A DNA stretch of 64,000 bases from an uncultured Spartobacteria bacterium (GTDB lineage: Bacteria; Verrucomicrobiota; Verrucomicrobiia; Chthoniobacterales; Terrimicrobiaceae): positions 1 to 64,000 of the forward strand of contig CALFPA010000108.1 of NCBI GenBank assembly GCA_937919825.1. The letters are read 5' to 3'. The position numbers and the translations under genes were made by a program. The notes below the pieces were generated by a model. The model saw only the letters and a program-made list of their open reading frames with translations, was not told the origin of the DNA and made no database searches. Positions within the stretch are counted from its first letter, which is position 1. Each line of letters begins with the position of its first letter. Below, in pieces: positions 29,254 to 52,313 of the stretch.

Positions 29254-30381
29254 ATGTTTTCGACTCTCCCATGCCGATCGCTTGTTTGCCTGGCGGTTCT
29301 GTCGGCCGTTCCCATGATTTTCGCGGAGCCTGTGGAGGCGCCCGCTGCGAAAATCGCCAAACCCTCTCCCGATGCGCCCGAGCGGATTCAAATGACGCGA
29401 GTGCAGATTTTTTTGGATCGCTCGGGATTTCGGCCGGGCAAAATCGATGGTCTCGGCGGGGAATTCACTCAGAAAGCCGCTGACCGGTGGTGCGATGCGC
29501 AGGGGGTCAAGCGTGGATCCTTCCTGGATGTCACCTCGATCGCAGAACCTTATCGCACACACACGATCGGCGAGGAGGATGCGAAATGGGTCGGGCCCAC
29601 TTCGTCGAAACCCTCGGAGCAATCGAAGCTGAAGGCATTGCTTTACGGAAGTCTCTGGGAGGCTTTGGCCGAGCGGTTCCATTGCGATCTGAATTTTCTG
29701 AAGGAGCTCAACCCCGAGGTTTCGGAGCCTGCGGTCGGGATGGTTTTGCGCGTTCCGGATGTGGAGGAATTCCGGATGGATGATGTCAAAGCCCTGCAAA
29801 AAGCCCGCGCGAATGGAACCGCTCAGGCGTTGCCGATTTCCACTCCGGCGCCGGAGGCCGCTCCGCTCTCTTCTCCTCCCTCACCGCAAATCGTCAACGA
29901 AGCGGATTTTTTTACGAATGGAAGCCCGGCAACTCCCGAGCCTGCGAAGCCAACTCCGACGGCCACTCCGGCGCCGTCCCGTCGTTTGGTTTTGTTACGG
30001 GACGAGCGGTTAATCGAGTTCTATGAAAACGACCGGATCGCAGGGTGTTTCCCATGCACTCCGGGGTCCGCGAAGTTCCCTGTGCCGCTGGGAACTTGGC
30101 GCGTGACGAGCAACATCCTCATGCCGAATTTTCGTTGGGACAAATCGGTTCTCGAGACCGGCGTGCGCAGCAACAATGCCTTCCTTCTTCCTCCAGGTCC
30201 CAATAGCCCTGTGGGCATTGTCTGGATGGGAATCAACCGGCCCAGCTTGGGAATGCACGGAACGAATTCTCCCGACCGCATCGGGCGCAATGAAAGCAGC
30301 GGCTGTATCCGCCTCGCGAATTGGGACGCCTTCCGGCTTTGCCAATTGGTGAAAAGCGGAACCGCGCTGGAGGTTCGATGA
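29254..30381 (+). CDS. L,D-transpeptidase (YkuD) with PG-binding and LysM-like parts
   Basis: 375 residues. Signal peptide (MFSTLPCRSLVCLAVLSAVP region), then a peptidoglycan-binding-1-like helix bundle (LDRSGFRPGKIDGL), a LysM-like segment (FHCDLNFLKELNPE), a Pro/Ala/Thr linker (220-275) and the YkuD domain. The enzyme makes 3-3 crosslinks or attaches proteins to peptidoglycan. The nucleophile Cys351 lies in SSGCIRLAN, and His335 in MHGTN supplies the base. The family motif is SHGCIR; here the His before Gly-Cys is Ser349. The catalytic Cys and first His remain, so it is probably active. It ends 1 nt before the convergent gene. Confidence 0.88.
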   Translation: MFSTLPCRSLVCLAVLSAVPMIFAEPVEAPAAKIAKPSPDAPERIQMTRVQIFLDRSGFRPGKIDGLGGEFTQKAADRWCDAQGVKRGSFLDVTSIAEPYRTHTIGEEDAKWVGPTSSKPSEQSKLKALLYGSLWEALAERFHCDLNFLKELNPEVSEPAVGMVLRVPDVEEFRMDDVKALQKARANGTAQALPISTPAPEAAPLSSPPSPQIVNEADFFTNGSPATPEPAKPTPTATPAPSRRLVLLRDERLIEFYENDRIAGCFPCTPGSAKFPVPLGTWRVTSNILMPNFRWDKSVLETGVRSNNAFLLPPGPNSPVGIVWMGINRPSLGMHGTNSPDRIGRNESSGCIRLANWDAFRLCQLVKSGTALEVR

Positions 30382-30382
30382 T

Positions 30383-32008
30383 CTAGGGACCGAAGAGGGT
30401 TTGGTTCAAAGCGGCGGAGGCGGAGCCGGCCAAGATCAGGAATTGGCTCATGCTCACTGGTCCACTTGATTCCATGCGGGTGCCATCAAGGATGCGTTTT
30501 TGGGAAAAAACGATGGGCGGCAAGTGCTGGCCAATCGTGGGAGGGCTTGGGAGTTTTTCGATATCCCATTTCTGGCTCATGTCCGGCATGAGGGCCGCGC
30601 TCATTTTGATGATGGGCAAAATCGCCCCGTAGGTCCTTTCGAAAACCACCCGCGTGTCTAAATAACAAAACGCCTCGTTGGAGTTCCGGTAGGCGCTCCG
30701 CGCATTTTGAAAGTCTGGCGAGTCTTGCAAGGTTTTCGAATGAGCTTCCAGCGCTTCGGAAACCGATTTCGGGTCGGTCCCAAGGATCAGGAATTTTTCA
30801 TTCTGAGCCGCGGCGATCGGCATCAAAGGGTGGGGGATCAGGTGCACGGCCGTCCCTCCCTGGGAGCCGGGAATCACGGTGGCGTTGGCGAGGAGGCTTT
30901 GGTTGGGGTTTCGCACCTTCATGGCCACGAGGAGCGAGGGATTCTGATCGTCGCTTGGTATCGAGCCAATGAGCGCGCACTCGGGTCCGTAGCCCTCCGC
31001 CACCGATTGCACCAAGGGCGCGAGCCCCTGGGTGGCGTTGGGATAGCTTTCAGCAAGCCTATCCAGCCAGTTCGGGAGCGAGGAAAAATTCAGCACGAAA
31101 TTGCCAAAGAGCGTCGTCTCGGGAGTTGTCAGGGCGATGGTCTCGTGGGAGATCGTCTCGGCGAGGCCACCGGAACCTTCGCGCAGCAGGAAAAACGCGT
31201 CGCGAATCATCTCGCCATCCATTTTCCATGCTCCGCCTGCGGCCTCGGTCAATTTCAGCTCATCGACATGATCCGGAATCGCCGTGGCGCCGATTGAGCG
31301 TCCAACGGCGAGCAAAGCGTCCAACGCTTTTTCTGGTTGGAGGAATACCAAAAGGTCGGGTTCGGCGAAGAGTTCGGTGATGACTTTTAGGAATCTGGGA
31401 TTAGCGGCCAGCGGCGGCGACTGGGCATTGCCGGTGGCGCGGTCGAGCGCCTCCTTGATGAGAGAGGCATCGTTCGTGAAAAAGCCCCAGCGTCCCGCCA
31501 CCGCGGTGTGGAGAAGAAGATCGCCATGCTGCGTGACGGTGATTTCGAGCCCCCGATATTCTTCCTTGGTCGGTTCGCCGGTCGCCGGAGGCAGGGCGGC
31601 CCGCGCCTTGGCAACCGCCGTCAGGAAATCCTCGCGTTTTCCCCAAAATTGAACCCCGAGAATTCCCCGAAAATCCTGCTCCGGCGCGCTGGTTGCGGCG
31701 AGGTAGATGTTCCCAGGCTTCAGCTTGGTGAGAATGTCCAGGGTCTCCTTGTTGGTGGGCGACTCATTGAAACGGGCAAGAGGCTTTTCGAGGAATGCCC
31801 GCACTTCGGGTTCAGCAGCGATTTGGGCCAGCGCGGTGCGGGACCAACGGAAACCCGTGAGCGGAACATTCGGGATATTGGCAAAAAATACCGAATCCGC
31901 CGGGGCTAGGGAGGAGGCTTGCGAAGGGCCTGCCGGGCGATTGAAAATCGTCACGCCTGCGAGGATCAAAACGCCGACGATCACGAGTCCGATTGCGACT
32001 TTTTTCAT
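30383..32008 (-). CDS. Membrane-anchored periplasmic protein, unknown
   Basis: 541 residues. One N-terminal membrane helix (MKKVAIGLVIVGVLILAGV), then a long exported domain. Recurrent strands of the kind SVFFANIPNVP, LVFLQPEK, FCYLDTRVVFER and ILGTDPKSV suggest a repeated alpha/beta module, similar in style to DUF3352-type proteins. I cannot assign it to a family with certainty. The start at 32008 (Met followed by Lys-Lys and the helix) is favoured over a reading from 32308 that runs past the divergent htrA start. It is divergent from htrA, separated by 117 nt. Confidence 0.7.
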   Translation of the reverse strand: MKKVAIGLVIVGVLILAGVTIFNRPAGPSQASSLAPADSVFFANIPNVPLTGFRWSRTALAQIAAEPEVRAFLEKPLARFNESPTNKETLDILTKLKPGNIYLAATSAPEQDFRGILGVQFWGKREDFLTAVAKARAALPPATGEPTKEEYRGLEITVTQHGDLLLHTAVAGRWGFFTNDASLIKEALDRATGNAQSPPLAANPRFLKVITELFAEPDLLVFLQPEKALDALLAVGRSIGATAIPDHVDELKLTEAAGGAWKMDGEMIRDAFFLLREGSGGLAETISHETIALTTPETTLFGNFVLNFSSLPNWLDRLAESYPNATQGLAPLVQSVAEGYGPECALIGSIPSDDQNPSLLVAMKVRNPNQSLLANATVIPGSQGGTAVHLIPHPLMPIAAAQNEKFLILGTDPKSVSEALEAHSKTLQDSPDFQNARSAYRNSNEAFCYLDTRVVFERTYGAILPIIKMSAALMPDMSQKWDIEKLPSPPTIGQHLPPIVFSQKRILDGTRMESSGPVSMSQFLILAGSASAALNQTLFGP

Positions 32009-44479: not shown

Positions 44480-45634
44480 GTGAAAAATTTCGTTCTCATT
44501 CCCTTGCTAACTCTGGCAATTGCCATGCCTGCGATCGCGCAGGTCGGTGATTCTTCGCCAATCACGCTCAATTACAGCGGCGGGTCTCGTATTAAAGACC
44601 TGATTGATGTCGAAGGCGCTCGTGACAACCAATTGAACGGCTTCGGACTCGTGGTTGGTCTGGCCGGAACAGGTGATAGCAAAATCGATTCGACTTTGCA
44701 GACCATCGCGAACGCATTGAAAAATTTCGGCGTCAATGTGCCAATGGATGACATCAAGTCCGGCAATGTCGCCGCAGTTATGGTCACGGCGGATATTCCG
44801 GCATTTGTGAAGCCCGGCACGCGTATTGATATCGTTGTATCTTCAATCGGCGACTCAAAAACGCTCCAAGGCGGTGTGCTTTTGCAAGTTCCTCTACAAG
44901 GTGCGGATAAGACCGTTTATGCCGTAGCCCAAGGGCCGATTGCTGTGGGTGGTTTCCTCGGCGGTCAGGGCGGTCCCGGTGGGGCAACAGTCCAGAAAAA
45001 CTTCCCAACCGTAGGCACGATTCCGAATGGCGCGATTGTGGAGCGTGAAATCCCGATGCAAATCGTGAACAACGGCTCGCTGAACTTGCTCCTGCGCGAT
45101 GCGGACTTTACTTCGGCAGCCCGTATGGCTGAGGCGGTAAACCGAGTTTTTCCGAACACTGCCGTCGCTCGGGATTCAAAGACGGTTAATGTCCTCCTTC
45201 CGCCTGAATACAGCAACTACGAGGTGAATTTCCTTGCCACGATTGGCAGTATCGAAATCGAACCGGACTCCACCGCCCGCGTGGTGATTAACGAACGCAC
45301 CGGGGTGATTGTCGCGACCTCGAATGTCCGAGTTTCCAAGGTGGCGATTAGTCATGGTTCACTGACGATTTCGGTAGCGTCCACCCTCACGGCCAGTCAG
45401 CCAGATGCAGCTCCTCTCATCGGAAATGCGGCGGGTCAGACAGTGGTTCTGCCCAGCACAACGACCGAAGTGAACGAGCAAAAGGGTTCTTTCAAGATGG
45501 TTGAAGAACAGCCAAAAATCGAGCAGGTCGCGGCCGCTTTGAATGCGCTAGGCGTGAGCACCCGCGACATGATGTCCATTTTCCAAACCATGAAACGAGC
45601 TGGAGCCCTGCAAGCGGAACTTGTTCTGAACTAA
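44480..45634 (+). CDS. flgI: Flagellar P-ring protein FlgI
   Basis: 384 residues from a GTG start with a signal peptide (VLIPLLTLAIAMPAIAQ). Family blocks: RIKDLIDVEGARDNQLNGFGLVVGLAGTGDS (key part GFGLVVGLAGTGD), AVMVTADIPAFVKPGTRIDI, GGVLLQVPLQGADKTVYAVAQGP, ERTGVIVATSNVRVSKVAISHG and the C-terminal LNALGVSTRDMMSIFQTMKRAGAL. It forms the periplasmic bushing around the rod. It follows flgH by 12 nt and precedes the rod-binding protein by 2 nt. Together with flgH it shows a diderm envelope. Confidence 0.96.
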   Translation: MKNFVLIPLLTLAIAMPAIAQVGDSSPITLNYSGGSRIKDLIDVEGARDNQLNGFGLVVGLAGTGDSKIDSTLQTIANALKNFGVNVPMDDIKSGNVAAVMVTADIPAFVKPGTRIDIVVSSIGDSKTLQGGVLLQVPLQGADKTVYAVAQGPIAVGGFLGGQGGPGGATVQKNFPTVGTIPNGAIVEREIPMQIVNNGSLNLLLRDADFTSAARMAEAVNRVFPNTAVARDSKTVNVLLPPEYSNYEVNFLATIGSIEIEPDSTARVVINERTGVIVATSNVRVSKVAISHGSLTISVASTLTASQPDAAPLIGNAAGQTVVLPSTTTEVNEQKGSFKMVEEQPKIEQVAAALNALGVSTRDMMSIFQTMKRAGALQAELVLN

Positions 45635-45636
45635 TT

Positions 45637-45972
45637 ATGGAAATTTCACCCATCACCCCACAGTCCGGCCTACTGATGAACCCCGACCTCGGGGCCATGG
45701 CCGCCGCCGGAAAAAATTCCCGCCCCGATGGGAAGGATGCAAAAATTGCCGACTCATGCAAAGAGTTCGAGGCCGTGCTCTGGCGCCAAATGCTCGAAAA
45801 AGCTCTCTCGCCCATGCTCCATTCCACGGAGGGCGGCGGAGATAAGACTGGAACATACAACTATTTCCTGACGAACACGATTGCCGACGAAGTCAGTCAA
45901 GGCTCCAACGGCATTTCGTCTGTGCTTTACGCCCAACTTGTTAGCAAAAATCCAAAAACCTCAAATCTATGA
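45637..45972 (+). CDS. flgJ: Rod-binding protein (FlgJ N-terminal domain/CheL)
   Basis: 111 residues. It corresponds to the rod-capping domain of FlgJ, with the signature KDAKIADSCKEFEAVLWRQMLEKALSPML and DKTGTYNYFLTNTIADEVSQG-type end (NTIADEVSQ). The muramidase domain of enterobacterial FlgJ is absent, so peptidoglycan must be opened by a separate lytic enzyme. Its stop overlaps the flgN start by 4 nt. Confidence 0.85.
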   Translation: MEISPITPQSGLLMNPDLGAMAAAGKNSRPDGKDAKIADSCKEFEAVLWRQMLEKALSPMLHSTEGGGDKTGTYNYFLTNTIADEVSQGSNGISSVLYAQLVSKNPKTSNL

Positions 45973-46469
45973 ACATACAAACCCAATTCCAAGAGATCGT
46001 GGCGATGCTTCAGAACGAACTCCAAGAATACGGAGGGCTATTGCACCTTTTCGATCGCCAACAAAAATGCATCGTTCACCAAGACCCAACAGGTTTTCTC
46101 GATATCAATGTCGATGTCGACGAGCAGATTGCAAAACTTTCCCACTGCCGCCTCGAACGCGAGGAACTCGTTCGCCAGACAGCCTTGGCCCTCGGTAAAT
46201 CGAAGGACATCACGCTTTCCGCGCTGAGTCATAGTTTCGCTCCTGAGCATCAACCGCTTCTGCGCGCATTGATCGACGAAATCAATGACCTGATCACCCG
46301 CACCCAGCGCCGGACCCGCCAAAATCGCATGCTTCTCTCCCAATGCGTGGAGTCGGCACGGCAATTGCTTGCTGTAAGCAACCCCGGAGCGATCCCAGGA
46401 ACCTACGGGGCCCACGGACAGATCAGAACCCAATACAACACCGATCGATACACCGCCGCCGTCGCCTGA
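45969..46469 (+). CDS. flgN: FlgN-like export chaperone
   Basis: 166 residues, mostly helical, rich in Gln/Leu/Arg. The heptad-like helices (FQEIVAMLQNELQEYGGLL, DVDEQIAKLSHCRLEREELV, LIDEINDLITRTQRRTRQN) and position directly before flgK and flgL fit FlgN, the chaperone that keeps FlgK and FlgL soluble for export. Assignment rests on context as much as sequence. It starts within the end of the rod-binding gene. Confidence 0.7.
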   Translation: MNIQTQFQEIVAMLQNELQEYGGLLHLFDRQQKCIVHQDPTGFLDINVDVDEQIAKLSHCRLEREELVRQTALALGKSKDITLSALSHSFAPEHQPLLRALIDEINDLITRTQRRTRQNRMLLSQCVESARQLLAVSNPGAIPGTYGAHGQIRTQYNTDRYTAAVA

Positions 46470-46516
46470 ACCGACCGAGGCGGGATTAAGGTCCCGAACA
46501 AGGAAGTTTCAATTTT

Positions 46517-47944
46517 ATGGCAGGTCTCATCTCCTCACTGCACAACAGCAGCGCCGCTCTTCGAGTCCACTCGAAAGGACTCGAAGTTACGGGCAAAAAC
46601 CTCGCGAATGTCAATAACCGCGGCTACGCCAAGCAGCGCGTTGAAATCGGCGATCGCGGGCAAATCAATACTGGCATCGCTACGGAAAGCATGGGCGTGG
46701 AAGCCATGGGCCTCCGTCAAAACCGTGACGCCCTCCTAGACAAAAGTGTCATGCGGGAGTTGACCGCCACAGCAGATTTGGAAGCTGCTAAAAAAGTCCT
46801 GACCAGCACGGAGACAGCGCTGGGGCAGTTCCTCGATCGAACGAAAGATTCCACTTCCATTCAAAATGCGATGGGCGCCAACGGAGGTGCCATCGGTGAT
46901 GCCATTACGGATTTTTTCAACTCATGGGAAAGTGTTTCCGTGAAGCCTCAGGATGTTGGTGAGAAACAGCTTCTCTTGGAAAAAGCTAAAATCTTGGCAG
47001 AAAAGCTCAACCAGACCGACGATCGACTCGAGAAAGTTCAATTGGATGTCGACTCGCAACTTCAGGTCGATGTCGAAACGGTCAATCAGATTCTCGCTGA
47101 AATTGCTAAAACCAACGATTACATCGCCAAAGCGGAGTTGGTGAAGCCGTATTCTGCTGTTGATTTGCGCGATCAAAGGCAAGCGAAACTCGAGGAGCTC
47201 TCCAAGTATCTGGATGTTCAGTTTGAAAATATCCCCCCCCCCGATGGCTTGGGTCAAATCATCGTAAAGTCATCAGATGGTATAGAGTTGGTTAATGGTA
47301 AAATAGTTGCTGGACAGACCACAAATGCGGATGGGTCAGTAACTGGGCCTATTTCCTACAACACCACCACTAAAAAAGTCCAACATGACGAAGATGGGAC
47401 AGGTGCAATAGTTCCAGTTGATCTTTCTGCAAATGGAAAACTTGCGGCGCAACTCGAGTCGTCCACAGGCACCGTTCAAACGGCTCGTGATCAATTAAGC
47501 TCTCTAAAAGATGCTTTGAGCACTGAGGTAAATTCGGCCTACACCCCAGCAGCATTTTTTGCGATCGATACAGTAACGAACGAAATTTCTGTGTCTGCGA
47601 CTTCCATTTCAGCAGGAACCAGTGGCAGTAATGAAATTGCTTTGGATGTAGCAGCGCTTGGCACACAATCGATTACAGCCTTGGGTTCCACCTTCAATGC
47701 CTACTTCAATAAAACGGTAACAACAGTCGCCCAGCAGTTGAATTCCACAAATACTCGCCTAGAGGATCAAAAGCTCAGCGAGGAAATGGCTGTCAATAGC
47801 CGAGATCAATACAGCGGGGTTTCCCAAGACGAAGAAATCACCGATATGATGAAATTTCAGCGCAGCTTCCAAGCTTCAGCCCGGCACATCAATGTGATCG
47901 ATACCCTTTTGGAACAAGTCGTGAACCGCCTCGGAGTAGGCTAA
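46517..47944 (+). CDS. flgK: Flagellar hook-associated protein 1 FlgK
   Basis: 475 residues. N-terminal rod-family helix (SLHNSSAALRVHSKGLEVTGKNLANVNNRGYAKQ-type, key part GKNLANVNNRGYAKQRVE), a coiled D1 region, and the C-terminal EEITDMMKFQRSFQASARHINVIDTLLEQVVNRLG block that ends FlgK proteins. It links hook and filament. A good ribosome-binding site (aaggaag) lies before the ATG. The middle domain (about 240-390) is short compared with enterobacterial FlgK. Confidence 0.94.
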   Translation: MAGLISSLHNSSAALRVHSKGLEVTGKNLANVNNRGYAKQRVEIGDRGQINTGIATESMGVEAMGLRQNRDALLDKSVMRELTATADLEAAKKVLTSTETALGQFLDRTKDSTSIQNAMGANGGAIGDAITDFFNSWESVSVKPQDVGEKQLLLEKAKILAEKLNQTDDRLEKVQLDVDSQLQVDVETVNQILAEIAKTNDYIAKAELVKPYSAVDLRDQRQAKLEELSKYLDVQFENIPPPDGLGQIIVKSSDGIELVNGKIVAGQTTNADGSVTGPISYNTTTKKVQHDEDGTGAIVPVDLSANGKLAAQLESSTGTVQTARDQLSSLKDALSTEVNSAYTPAAFFAIDTVTNEISVSATSISAGTSGSNEIALDVAALGTQSITALGSTFNAYFNKTVTTVAQQLNSTNTRLEDQKLSEEMAVNSRDQYSGVSQDEEITDMMKFQRSFQASARHINVIDTLLEQVVNRLGVG

Positions 47945-47956
47945 TCTAATTAAGCC

Positions 47957-48880
47957 ATGAGAGTTACATTTAACGCATTTCCTGACACGCTCCTCGGTCG
48001 TCTTCAGTCCTTGGGCTCGGAGCAGAATAAAGCCTTGACGCAACTCAGCACGGGTCAGCGCATTTCTGCCCCCAGCGATGACGCTCCGGCCATGCAGCGG
48101 ATTCTCAATCTGCGAACCGAGAAGAAGCAGAATCAGCAGTTCCATCAGAATGCAACCGATGGTCTTGAGAAGAGCAAGGTGACATTTTCATCCTTGGAAC
48201 AAATCAAGGACCTCTTGGTCCGAGCCTCCGAACTTGCTGCTGGAATCAATGGAGCTTCTTCAGAAAATGAATATTTCGCCAAGTCCACTGAAATCAATCA
48301 GCTTATTGAGCAAGGTTTGAATGTCGGAAATACCAAGTTGCGCGGAGCCTACCTTTTAGCCGCTGACTCCCCAGAAAATCCTGCCTATACTGCTGCAAGG
48401 GATCCTCAGACCGATAAAATCACAGCTGTTACCTATGCCGGCAGCCCTAATGATTCCGCAATTCGTATAAACGAAGATACCGAAATTAAAGTCGGCTCTT
48501 CAGTTTCAGAAAACGAAAAAATTGCGGATTTACTAAATAAACTCATTTCTCTCCGGGATGCCATGGATGCACCCGCTTCAGCAACAAAAGCCGAGACGGT
48601 GATTGGAATGAGATCACAAGGAACAGATAACCTGGATGAACTCGAAAACACCGTTCTTTCCTATCTCTCAAGAGCCGGCACCATTCAATACCGCCTCGAA
48701 ACCGCAATGCGCGATCTCGAGGTCCGCTACGAGGCCACGGAGCAATTGATTTCCAAAGATGCCGATGTGGATTTTGCCGAGGCTACGGTTCGGCTGAATC
48801 GTTCTCAGATGGCATACCAGGCGGCCATTCAGAGTGGAGCGATGATTCAGCGAAATTCTCTGCTCGACTATGTTCGCTGA
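47957..48880 (+). CDS. flgL: Flagellar hook-associated protein 3 FlgL
   Basis: 307 residues with flagellin-like ends. The N-terminal LSTGQRISAPSDDAPAMQRILNL and the C-terminal RLNRSQMAYQAAIQSGAMIQRNSLLDYV are typical of FlgL. The filament gene itself (flagellin) is not in this window. It sits 12 nt after flgK and 19 nt before fliW. Confidence 0.93.
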   Translation: MRVTFNAFPDTLLGRLQSLGSEQNKALTQLSTGQRISAPSDDAPAMQRILNLRTEKKQNQQFHQNATDGLEKSKVTFSSLEQIKDLLVRASELAAGINGASSENEYFAKSTEINQLIEQGLNVGNTKLRGAYLLAADSPENPAYTAARDPQTDKITAVTYAGSPNDSAIRINEDTEIKVGSSVSENEKIADLLNKLISLRDAMDAPASATKAETVIGMRSQGTDNLDELENTVLSYLSRAGTIQYRLETAMRDLEVRYEATEQLISKDADVDFAEATVRLNRSQMAYQAAIQSGAMIQRNSLLDYVR

Positions 48881-48899
48881 TTTCATCTAAATACGCCCG

Positions 48900-49355
48900 A
48901 TGCTCGTTGAAGCCGCCATTTCGGGTCAGCAGGAGTTCACGCCTGATGACACGAACAACAAATTTTTCATGCCCGAGGGACTCATCGGGCTCTCGGAGTT
49001 TAAGAACTTCGAGTTGATCGTTGATACAGACACTCTGCCGTTTGTTGTTCTGCGTTCCTACAATGGCGATGAAATCCAGATTCCGGCGCTTGAACCGGTC
49101 AATTTTGTTCAAAATTACAAACTCAATATCGGCGATGAGGATGCAGCGACTCTCGAGTTGCAGGGGGCAGATGCAAATCCGTTGATCCTGAATGTTGCCA
49201 CCATCAAGTCGTTCGAGCCGCAAAAGGTGACGCTCAACCTGGCCGCTCCGATCTTGATCAACCGGCGCACACGCATCGGCAAGCAAGTGGTCTTGGTGAA
49301 TTACCAAGACTACTCGACGCAGCATGTGCTCATCGACGAAACCGTGAGCCACTGA
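48900..49355 (+). CDS. fliW: Flagellar assembly factor FliW
   Basis: 151 residues. FliW binds CsrA and flagellin in a partner switch that matches flagellin translation to export. Family features: [44 protein letters not shown] and the closing [21 protein letters not shown]. It lies 7 nt before csrA, the usual arrangement. Confidence 0.94.
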
Positions 49356-49362
49356 CCGAACC

Positions 49363-49674
49363 ATGCTCACGCTCTCACGAAAAATTGGCGAAACCATCCA
49401 GATCGGCGACAACATTGTTCTGCTGATCAAGCGCGTGGATGGCGAAGTGGTCCGTATCGGCATTGATGCTCCAAAAAGCATTCCCATCTACCGCGGGGAA
49501 ATCTACGAGGAAATCAAGGCCCAGAACCTCGAGGCGATCAAGAATCCGCAGACATCGCTCACCAAGCAAAATCTCGGAAAACTCCGCTTGGCCGCCTCCT
49601 TTGCCCGCAATCTTGCGAATCCGCAACCGGCCACTCCTCCGGAGCCTCCGGCTCAAAATCCCCCGACGGAATAA
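49363..49674 (+). CDS. csrA: Carbon storage regulator CsrA, extended C-terminus
   Basis: 103 residues. RNA-binding dimer, with [18 protein letters not shown]-type strand one (Leu4 and Arg6 present), [14 protein letters not shown] and the RNA-contacting [10 protein letters not shown] (Arg44). CsrA proteins are often near 60-75 residues; this one has about 40 extra, a helix ([19 protein letters not shown]) and a Pro-rich tail. The C-terminal extension is where FliW contacts CsrA in Bacillus. It is the last gene of the flagellar run. Confidence 0.94.
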
Positions 49675-49710: not shown

Positions 49711-49738
49711 AAATCCCCGGTCTTGATCTTGGGGATTT
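49711..49738 (+). promoter_or_regulatory. Hairpin overlapping the PBP start
   Basis: AAATCCCC (49711-49718), 12-nt loop, GGGGATTT (49731-49738), a perfect 8-bp stem. It could be a weak terminator for the flagellar operon without a U tract. It also covers the purine-rich sequence and first two bases of the proposed TTG start of the next gene, so it could restrict its translation. Confidence 0.4.
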
Positions 49739-52313
49739 GAAGTGGAAAAGTCCTGCCATCAGTAAAGACCTCTACAGTTGGGAAAAAGCGAAGCCTGAGC
49801 GCCGCGTGCCGCTCTACACCCGCAAAATCGTATGGATGCCAGTCGCCGTGCTGGCGATCGGAGCTTTTGCCGCCTGGGTGGTTTTTGGAATCTTAACGAG
49901 CCAATACAAAGACCGCGCCGAGGAGTTCGATCTCAAGCAGGTCACAGAAATGGAAGCAGCCTCCGTGCTCTACGACCGCGAGGGCCGGGAATTCGGGAAA
50001 ATTTTTATCCAAAATCGACAACCGGTGACTTACGAGCGTCTCCCGCAAGCTCTCGTGGATGCTGTCATTTCGGCCGAAGACAATCGGTTTTATTCCCATA
50101 CGGGCGTCGACTACATGGGCATCTTTCGAGCGGCGATCACGAACTACCTTCAAGGCCGCATTGCCCAAGGAGCGAGCACCGTCACGCAGCAACTGGCCCG
50201 AAATTCATTCGAACTCCGCGAGCGCACCTACGAGCGCAAACTGATCGAATTGTATCTCGCCTGGCGCATCGAGAGGAATTTCTCGAAGCGCGAAATCATG
50301 GGGGCCTACCTGAATCGCGTTTACTTCGGCAGCGGTTTTTACGGCGCCGAGGCTGCCGCGCAGGGGTATTTTGGAAAAAATGCCATTGACCTCTCAATCG
50401 GACAGTGCGCCACCCTGGCGGGACTTTTAAAAAGCCCGAACGCCCTCTCACCATTTAACAACCCCGAGGGATCGAAGTCCTCGCGCGATATCGTTCTTCA
50501 AAAAATGCGCGAACTCGGACTCATCAGCCGAAAGGAATTCGCCGAGGAGACTGAGTCTGCGCTAGGCGTCGTGAAGCGCACGAACCCCTTCAAGACAGGC
50601 TACGCTCAAGAACTCATCCGCCAGCAGGTCATCAAAGCTCTCGGTTTCGAGCGGGCGATGAATGGGGGCTACCGCATCGACACCACACTCGACATCGACC
50701 TCCAGCGTGCCGCCGAAAAGGCCACGCAGGACATTCTTTTAGAGGTGGAATCCCGCCCTGGCTACAACCACCCCACCTTTGCCGAATACCGCGCAGCCAC
50801 GGCGAAGCTGGAGGAAGACATTAATCGTGGAAAAATGTCGGTGAAAATGCCCGAGCCAAAATACCTCCAAAGCGCGACGATCGCCGCTGACAACGCCACT
50901 GGCGGCATTCTGGCCCTTGTCGGGGGTCGCGATTTTCGCCACAGCGAATACAACCGCGCCGTGCAAGGAACCCGCGCCGCCGGCACGGCCTTTACCCCCT
51001 TTGTTTACACTGCTGCGTATGACTCTGGCGTGTTCCCTGGGGAACTCGTCCAAGACGCTTGTATCGATAACCGATATGTCATGGTCGGAGGCGAGACGGG
51101 CATCCTCGGCGAGTGGGGGGTAGAAACCGCCGAGAACGAATATGAGGGATCCATCCCCACGCGCGAGGCCCTCCTCAAAGGCAAAAACGCCGCCACCGTC
51201 CGACTCGGAATGAAAATCGGCTTGGACAAAGTGATCGAGACCGCGACCGCCGCGGGATTCACTTCGCCACTCCGCGACTACTCAAATTCCTTCCTCGGCA
51301 GTAGCGAGTCCTCCCTCGACGAACTCGTCCTCGGCTACACGATTTTCCCAAACACCGGTCAGCGTCCTGCCAGTCTCCACATCATTCAAAACATCAAAGA
51401 TTCCGACGGCCAATCGATCTTCAGCGCGCCTCGCAAGCGCTACAGCGCTCTCTCCCCGACAGCCACCTACCAAGTCCACTCGATCCTTTCCGATTACATG
51501 GAGAAAGGCCAAGGAGCCGCCGCCTTCTCGCAATTCGGCCTGCCATCGATTCCCGTCGCTGGAAAATCCGGCACCGCCTACGGCTTCACCGACACCTATT
51601 TTGTCGGCTACACAAACCGCGTCACCTGCGGCGTGTGGGTTGGTTTCGACAAGCCCATGAAAATTTTTCGCGGCGCCTTCGGCAAGGATCTCGCTCTTCC
51701 CATCTGGTCAAAAATCATGGCCGCCACTTTGAAATCCTTTCCTCCTTCTGCGATCGAGCAACCTCGGGGCCTGCAAACGGTCGAAGTCTGCCGCGCCTCC
51801 GGTCTCCTCGCGACTCCGCGCTGCCAACCCAAATCCTCCGCAAATCCCGTTCCAGCCTCGACGAGCGAATCGGATTCCACCCAAACCCTCAGCGTTTATC
51901 AGGAACTCGCCTCCGAAGAACAAATCCCCAAAATTTCCTGTGACATTCATGGAGGCGGCATTCGTTCCTACACCAGAGAATTTGAGCAGGAAGACTGGCC
52001 CCGCGCCGCTTCCGCCATTGATCTCAGCAAGATTCGTCCCGTCGCCGTCGTCTCGCCGGCTTTGACGGGTTACAATGACATCTACCGCTCCGTGAGGCCC
52101 GGAGAGGAAAGCGACAACGACGACAGCATTCCCGTCGCCAAGGCAATCCCGGTAAATGTTCCGCCACCCGCCGCCGAAGCCGTGGACGGCTCGCAGTCTT
52201 TTCCCGCCGATGTCGAAGTCCGTCGCGCCGAGCCCGTGGACTCCAGCGCCGAACCATTCGAAGCCCCCGCCCTGGAAGCCGCCCCGCCTGACCCGATTCA
52301 ATTTTTCAATTAA
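49737..52313 (+). CDS. Class A PBP homologue with degenerate transpeptidase
   Basis: 858 residues from TTG 49737 (GTG 49806 is the alternative). One membrane helix (IVWMPVAVLAIGAFAAWVVF), then a family 51 glycosyltransferase: Glu114 in ISAEDNRFYSHTGVD and QGASTVTQQLARN are intact, so lipid II polymerisation is expected. The transpeptidase domain has KSGT, but the SxxK tetrad reads TAFT (Thr417, Thr420) in RAAGTAFTPFVY, and the SxN site reads GKN. The nucleophilic Ser and its Lys are thus both replaced, predicting loss of crosslinking and beta-lactam acylation. The C-terminal 170 residues are Pro/Ala rich and unassigned. It is followed by the initiator tRNA. Confidence 0.88.
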   Translation: MKWKSPAISKDLYSWEKAKPERRVPLYTRKIVWMPVAVLAIGAFAAWVVFGILTSQYKDRAEEFDLKQVTEMEAASVLYDREGREFGKIFIQNRQPVTYERLPQALVDAVISAEDNRFYSHTGVDYMGIFRAAITNYLQGRIAQGASTVTQQLARNSFELRERTYERKLIELYLAWRIERNFSKREIMGAYLNRVYFGSGFYGAEAAAQGYFGKNAIDLSIGQCATLAGLLKSPNALSPFNNPEGSKSSRDIVLQKMRELGLISRKEFAEETESALGVVKRTNPFKTGYAQELIRQQVIKALGFERAMNGGYRIDTTLDIDLQRAAEKATQDILLEVESRPGYNHPTFAEYRAATAKLEEDINRGKMSVKMPEPKYLQSATIAADNATGGILALVGGRDFRHSEYNRAVQGTRAAGTAFTPFVYTAAYDSGVFPGELVQDACIDNRYVMVGGETGILGEWGVETAENEYEGSIPTREALLKGKNAATVRLGMKIGLDKVIETATAAGFTSPLRDYSNSFLGSSESSLDELVLGYTIFPNTGQRPASLHIIQNIKDSDGQSIFSAPRKRYSALSPTATYQVHSILSDYMEKGQGAAAFSQFGLPSIPVAGKSGTAYGFTDTYFVGYTNRVTCGVWVGFDKPMKIFRGAFGKDLALPIWSKIMAATLKSFPPSAIEQPRGLQTVEVCRASGLLATPRCQPKSSANPVPASTSESDSTQTLSVYQELASEEQIPKISCDIHGGGIRSYTREFEQEDWPRAASAIDLSKIRPVAVVSPALTGYNDIYRSVRPGEESDNDDSIPVAKAIPVNVPPPAAEAVDGSQSFPADVEVRRAEPVDSSAEPFEAPALEAAPPDPIQFFN

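Follow-up and report, generated by a model that had tools for sequence, protein, structure and literature searches.

The window analyzed here, a 64,000-nucleotide stretch of DNA from an uncultured Spartobacteria bacterium, encodes what is probably an ancient verrucomicrobial class A penicillin-binding protein (PBP) that polymerizes glycan without SxxK cross-linking and keeps its transpeptidase fold as a binding or regulatory module. Textbooks present class A PBPs as bifunctional enzymes, and they are targets of beta-lactams. The architecture of the window protein is that of a class A PBP; judged by its motifs, it lacks the SxxK and SxN elements of an active D,D-transpeptidase.

The open reading frame (49737-52313, plus strand) has a TTG start and specifies 858 amino acids; alignments with orthologues begin at residues 2 to 8. 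AlphaFold predicts a helix over residues 30 to 62 (49824-49922) that is hydrophobic in sequence and likely to be the N-terminal membrane anchor. Pfam analysis revealed a Transgly domain at residues 88 to 257 (49998-50507; 208 bits) and a low-scoring Transpeptidase domain at residues 381 to 627 (50877-51617; 59.8 bits, with a cut-off of 22.1). The GT51 domain carries all five of its motifs (E114-D115..H121, G145/S147/Q152, R167-K168..E171, K184..Y191/N193, and R250), which are invariant across 66 relatives, bearing out the view of an earlier note that the glycosyltransferase site is intact. The AlphaFold model has a mean pLDDT of 83, with the C-terminal transpeptidase-fold domain mostly above 90, and the domain matches the fold of class A PBPs; the best match to the model is E. 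coli PBP1b.

Alignment to solved class A PBPs placed GTAFTPF (residues 416 to 422) on GSSFKPF of P. aeruginosa PBP1a (4oon), so that T417 occupies the nucleophile position and T420 the Lys position of SxxK (T417-A-F-T420, 50985-50996). In the same alignment, G482 falls on the SxN Ser (G482-K-N484, 51180-51188; the Asn is kept) and K610 on the KTG Lys (K610-S-G-T613, 51564-51575). Where an active D,D-transpeptidase has SxxK, SxN, and KTG, this protein thus reads TAFT, GKN, and KSGT, and only the last is retained. The earlier note had read all four of these features (Thr for both Ser and Lys of SxxK, Gly for the SxN Ser, and a preserved KSGT) from the letters alone, and each stands. The transpeptidase domain contains no alternative SxxK; in the whole protein, S..K strings occur only at residues 14 and 55, neither of which is in the domain. 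Sequencing error behind TAFT was excluded, because Thr is the nucleophile-position residue in nearly all orthologues and orthologues of the same genus share T-x-F-T and GKN. In the model, T417 begins a helix (residues 416 to 429) and KSGT lies on a strand (residues 608 to 613), as in PBPs.

Orthologues were collected by searching the family, the order, and samples of the class and phylum, with subfamily A defined as order-search matches at E <= 1e-170. All 26 family genomes contained a match, in most cases an orthologue of 57 to 97% identity, and the order search counted subfamily A in 158 of 179 genomes. Within the class and phylum samples, this order and families f34 and f15 contained the subfamily, and f15 we take to be probably the Akkermansia family; no member turned up outside the class in these samples, and viral contigs contained no relative. 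A contig search returned a single relative, 97% identical, on contig JAPLTG010000032 (Verrucomicrobia MAG, isolate LacPavin). In the class and phylum samples, many genomes of the class had no class A PBP match to the window query, and two of these are 0.9-Mb single-contig genomes from the same order.

We then tabulated the state of the site in 114 distinct sequences bearing the subfamily signature described below. The nucleophile position was Thr in 109 and Ser in five, all five from one genus. At the Lys position we found T in 48, L in 30, K in 23, V in 6, I in 2, and Q, F, G, A, and S in 1 each; Lys is therefore absent from 91 of the 114. K610 and G612 are invariant, and N484 is kept in 91% of subfamily A. 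At SxN, several lineages have Gly or Ala in place of the Ser, and the Akkermansia-like family f15 has Ile in place of the Asn. Several lineages keep TxxK, SKN, and KTG together. The orthologue comparison thus bears out that T-x-F-T or variants of it are common to the group. S..K, SxN, and KTGT were kept in all 26 sampled copies of the second class A PBP (paralogue B) while subfamily A varies, so the loss is confined to one of two class A paralogues. It is also graded, running through SAFK, TAFK, and TAMK and then TAFT, TAFV, TAML, and TAIL.

Further inspection of the alignment revealed a signature, DNRxVMxGGxxGILGEWGxE, between the old SxxK and SxN that is more conserved than the catalytic residues. 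In the window protein it reads DACIDNRYVMVGGETGILGEWGVE (residues 440 to 463, 51054-51125), and the copies in family f15 read DNRLTGIGGSEGILGEWG. All 66 aligned members share D440, N445, G451, G452, G455, L457, E459, W460, and E463. The signature is lacking in paralogue B, whose loop is shorter and different (typically W/Y-x-P-x-N-S-D), and in the aligned solved PBPs; the nearest plasmid-borne rhizobial PBP1A proteins have 72 codons for an 84-residue stretch at this place. AlphaFold confidence is lower here, with 10-residue blocks at 55 to 78. From its place between the two motifs, the loop appears to border the old active site.

In order to reconstruct the loss, a tree of 107 sequences was built with the motif columns masked (IQ-TREE quick search, LG+G4). 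The split between A and B received full support. The minimum number of changes was 2 at the nucleophile, 8 between Lys and not-Lys, 24 among the letters of the Lys position, and 7 at the SxN Ser, and Lys losses rise to 13 if Lys was only ever lost; these counts are approximate, as they come from a short, simple-model search that flagged a meeting of two long branches (f3 and f2). Informative independent pairs for comparing Lys loss with SxN Ser loss are few. Together, the five sequences with Ser make up genus f4.g9, which is nested within family f4 next to sequences with TAFK. Placement of this genus as a basal, ancestral branch was tried, and its grouping with B was rejected (655 log-likelihood units; AU p about 1e-91). 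In the simplest history, Ser would have changed to Thr once, at the base of A, with Lys lost many times afterward and Ser regained from Thr once, in g9; the alternative, Ser kept along the line to g9, takes 10 separate Ser losses, all to Thr. Under both histories, Thr is favored at the nucleophile site. Thr precedes the loss of Lys and is nearly invariant, and Lys was lost many times. In the members of g9 (L084, L091, L172, L173, and L175), which lie among relatives with Thr, SAFK/SKN/KTG is complete, and the canonical site has apparently been restored.

That the protein polymerizes glycan and does not cross-link it, as the earlier note proposed, is the reading best supported by invariant glycosyltransferase motifs, the disappearance of three canonical residues, and the sharing of that loss among orthologues. 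In such a scheme, the membrane-anchored protein would polymerize lipid II into glycan strands through its GT51 domain. With the nucleophilic Ser and the Lys of SxxK and the Ser of SxN all missing, no acyl-enzyme cross-linking by the SxxK route and no acylation by penicillin would be expected. For the pseudo-transpeptidase fold, the probable ligand is stem peptide or a partner protein, a role proposed because the KTG Lys and the SxN Asn are kept and a new invariant loop lies by the old site; in this way the fold would place or regulate the glycosyltransferase. Intact paralogue B, other PBPs, or L,D-transpeptidases would cross-link the new strands.

The genome contains candidates for each of these. 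It is 2.7 Mb and 99% complete, and profile searches matched five PF00905, two Transgly, two SEDS, and eight YkuD proteins. The second class A PBP, paralogue B (C59:9878-11749, L004), has intact SVIK, SRN, and KTGT motifs, and the other three PF00905 PBPs carry STFK, STFK, and STYK with SSN, SCN, and SCN plus KTG. With four intact PBPs, two SEDS proteins, and eight YkuD matches, cross-linking capacity elsewhere in the genome is ample, in keeping with the earlier suggestion that cross-linking rests on other enzymes. One of the eight YkuD proteins is the L,D-transpeptidase encoded in the window at 29254-30390, whose HGTN...SSGCIR motif is intact.

A more speculative possibility, which we regard as rather doubtful, is that the fold has taken on a new use: the near-invariant Thr, the Lys of KTG, and the invariant signature loop would make up a new site, either a non-covalent stem-peptide sensor gating the glycosyltransferase or one with new chemistry, and one genus would have regained SAFK from a Thr ancestor. 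In the main rival to the preferred reading, which we consider unlikely, the domain would retain transpeptidase or carboxypeptidase activity, with Thr417 acting as the nucleophile and the KTG Lys or a Glu of the signature loop replacing the lost Lys as base. In principle, Thr can serve as a nucleophile, and the position, Thr or Ser in every member, is far too conserved for a useless one, which counts against a noncatalytic domain; the invariance of K610, G612, E459, and E463, the frequent retention of N484, and the lineages with TxxK, SKN, and KTG point the same way. However, ten different residues occupy the Lys position, many of them hydrophobic (Leu, Val, Ile, and Phe), and the substitutions at both the Ser and the Asn of SxN are hard to reconcile with such a mechanism. 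A Thr that begins a helix can also be retained for structure alone; T417 may serve as a helix cap, and its near-invariance would then need no catalysis. The members with TxxK, SKN, and KTG and the genus with SAFK, SKN, and KTG could still be active transpeptidases.

If the glycosyltransferase alone mattered, the transpeptidase domain might instead be drifting to loss under relaxed selection, and the changes at the Lys position (at least 24 on the tree) would fit. We find this very improbable. For the window gene compared with its nearest relative, dN/dS was 0.028 for the transpeptidase domain and 0.049 for the GT domain, and in three more distant genus pairs it was 0.028 to 0.137 versus 0.028 to 0.067, with some dS values near saturation. 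The ratio of transpeptidase to GT divergence within the family was 1.41 for A versus 2.48 for B, so that the intact paralogue is relatively less conserved in this domain. Given the low dN/dS, close to that of the GT domain, and the lower relative divergence than in B, the dead transpeptidase domain is under strong purifying selection and is not decaying. The signature loop is invariant, and the domain is present in relatives down to approximately 34% identity.

The protein shares its architecture, GT51 motifs, transpeptidase fold, and KTG position with class A PBPs of the PBP1a/PBP1b type (E. coli PBP1b and the PBP1a proteins of P. aeruginosa and A. baumannii), from which it differs in the replaced SxxK and SxN and the extra signature loop. 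It scored 483.2 bits against the PBP_1a_fam model (TIGR02074), below the cut-off of 508.75, whereas paralogue B, which has the same architecture and 39% identity to it and differs in its intact motifs and missing signature, passes with 526. The predicted activity, glycan polymerization without cross-linking, resembles that of MtgA (TIGR02070). Unlike MtgA, which has no transpeptidase domain, the window PBP keeps the whole fold, and it scored 143.4 bits against a cut-off of 182.65.

In a literature search that covered few subscription journals, we found neither a description of the subfamily nor biochemistry of any member, and we came across no earlier class A PBP with Thr at SxxK. The division table of the V. 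spinosum essential-gene paper includes class B-type PBPs and SEDS proteins, and the paper does not mention class A PBPs. A dead transpeptidase domain long kept under strong selection would show that the fold has a noncatalytic job in glycan synthesis, and the SAFK, TAFK, TAMK, TAFT, and TAIL series within one orthologous group offers a natural experiment on the dismantling of SxxK. The finding also bears on genome surveys that count every class A PBP as a bifunctional synthase: one aPBP of the presumed Akkermansia lacks SxxK, although Akkermansia was scored as retaining aPBP in a survey of aPBP loss (PMC8406291).

Directly upstream of the gene lies a flagellar run (44480-49674) that, with names taken from the translations, comprises flgI, flgJ-like, flgN-like, flgK, flgL, fliW, and csrA; the flgJ-like open reading frame is 111 amino acids long and apparently without a muramidase domain. 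The PBP gene sits just downstream of flgK-flgL-fliW-csrA, starting 62 bases after csrA, and the 97%-identical relative shares this gene order. A PBP dedicated to the flagellum is nevertheless scarcely credible and is contradicted by synteny, because the neighborhood is common to the window and that relative alone: the other loci examined, including those from the same genus, all lack a flagellar neighbor (some of these contigs are short).

The C-terminal region (residues 640 to 858, 51654-52310) consists of a segment containing Cys and His (C685, C696, C735, and H738) followed by a tail, predicted to be disordered, that ends in DPIQFFN. Within the tail (52200-52310), a VRRAxPV sequence recurs in 29 of 83 relatives, and 43 of the 83 have a near-terminal P-x-P-[IL]-x-F-like end, which resembles a short binding peptide.
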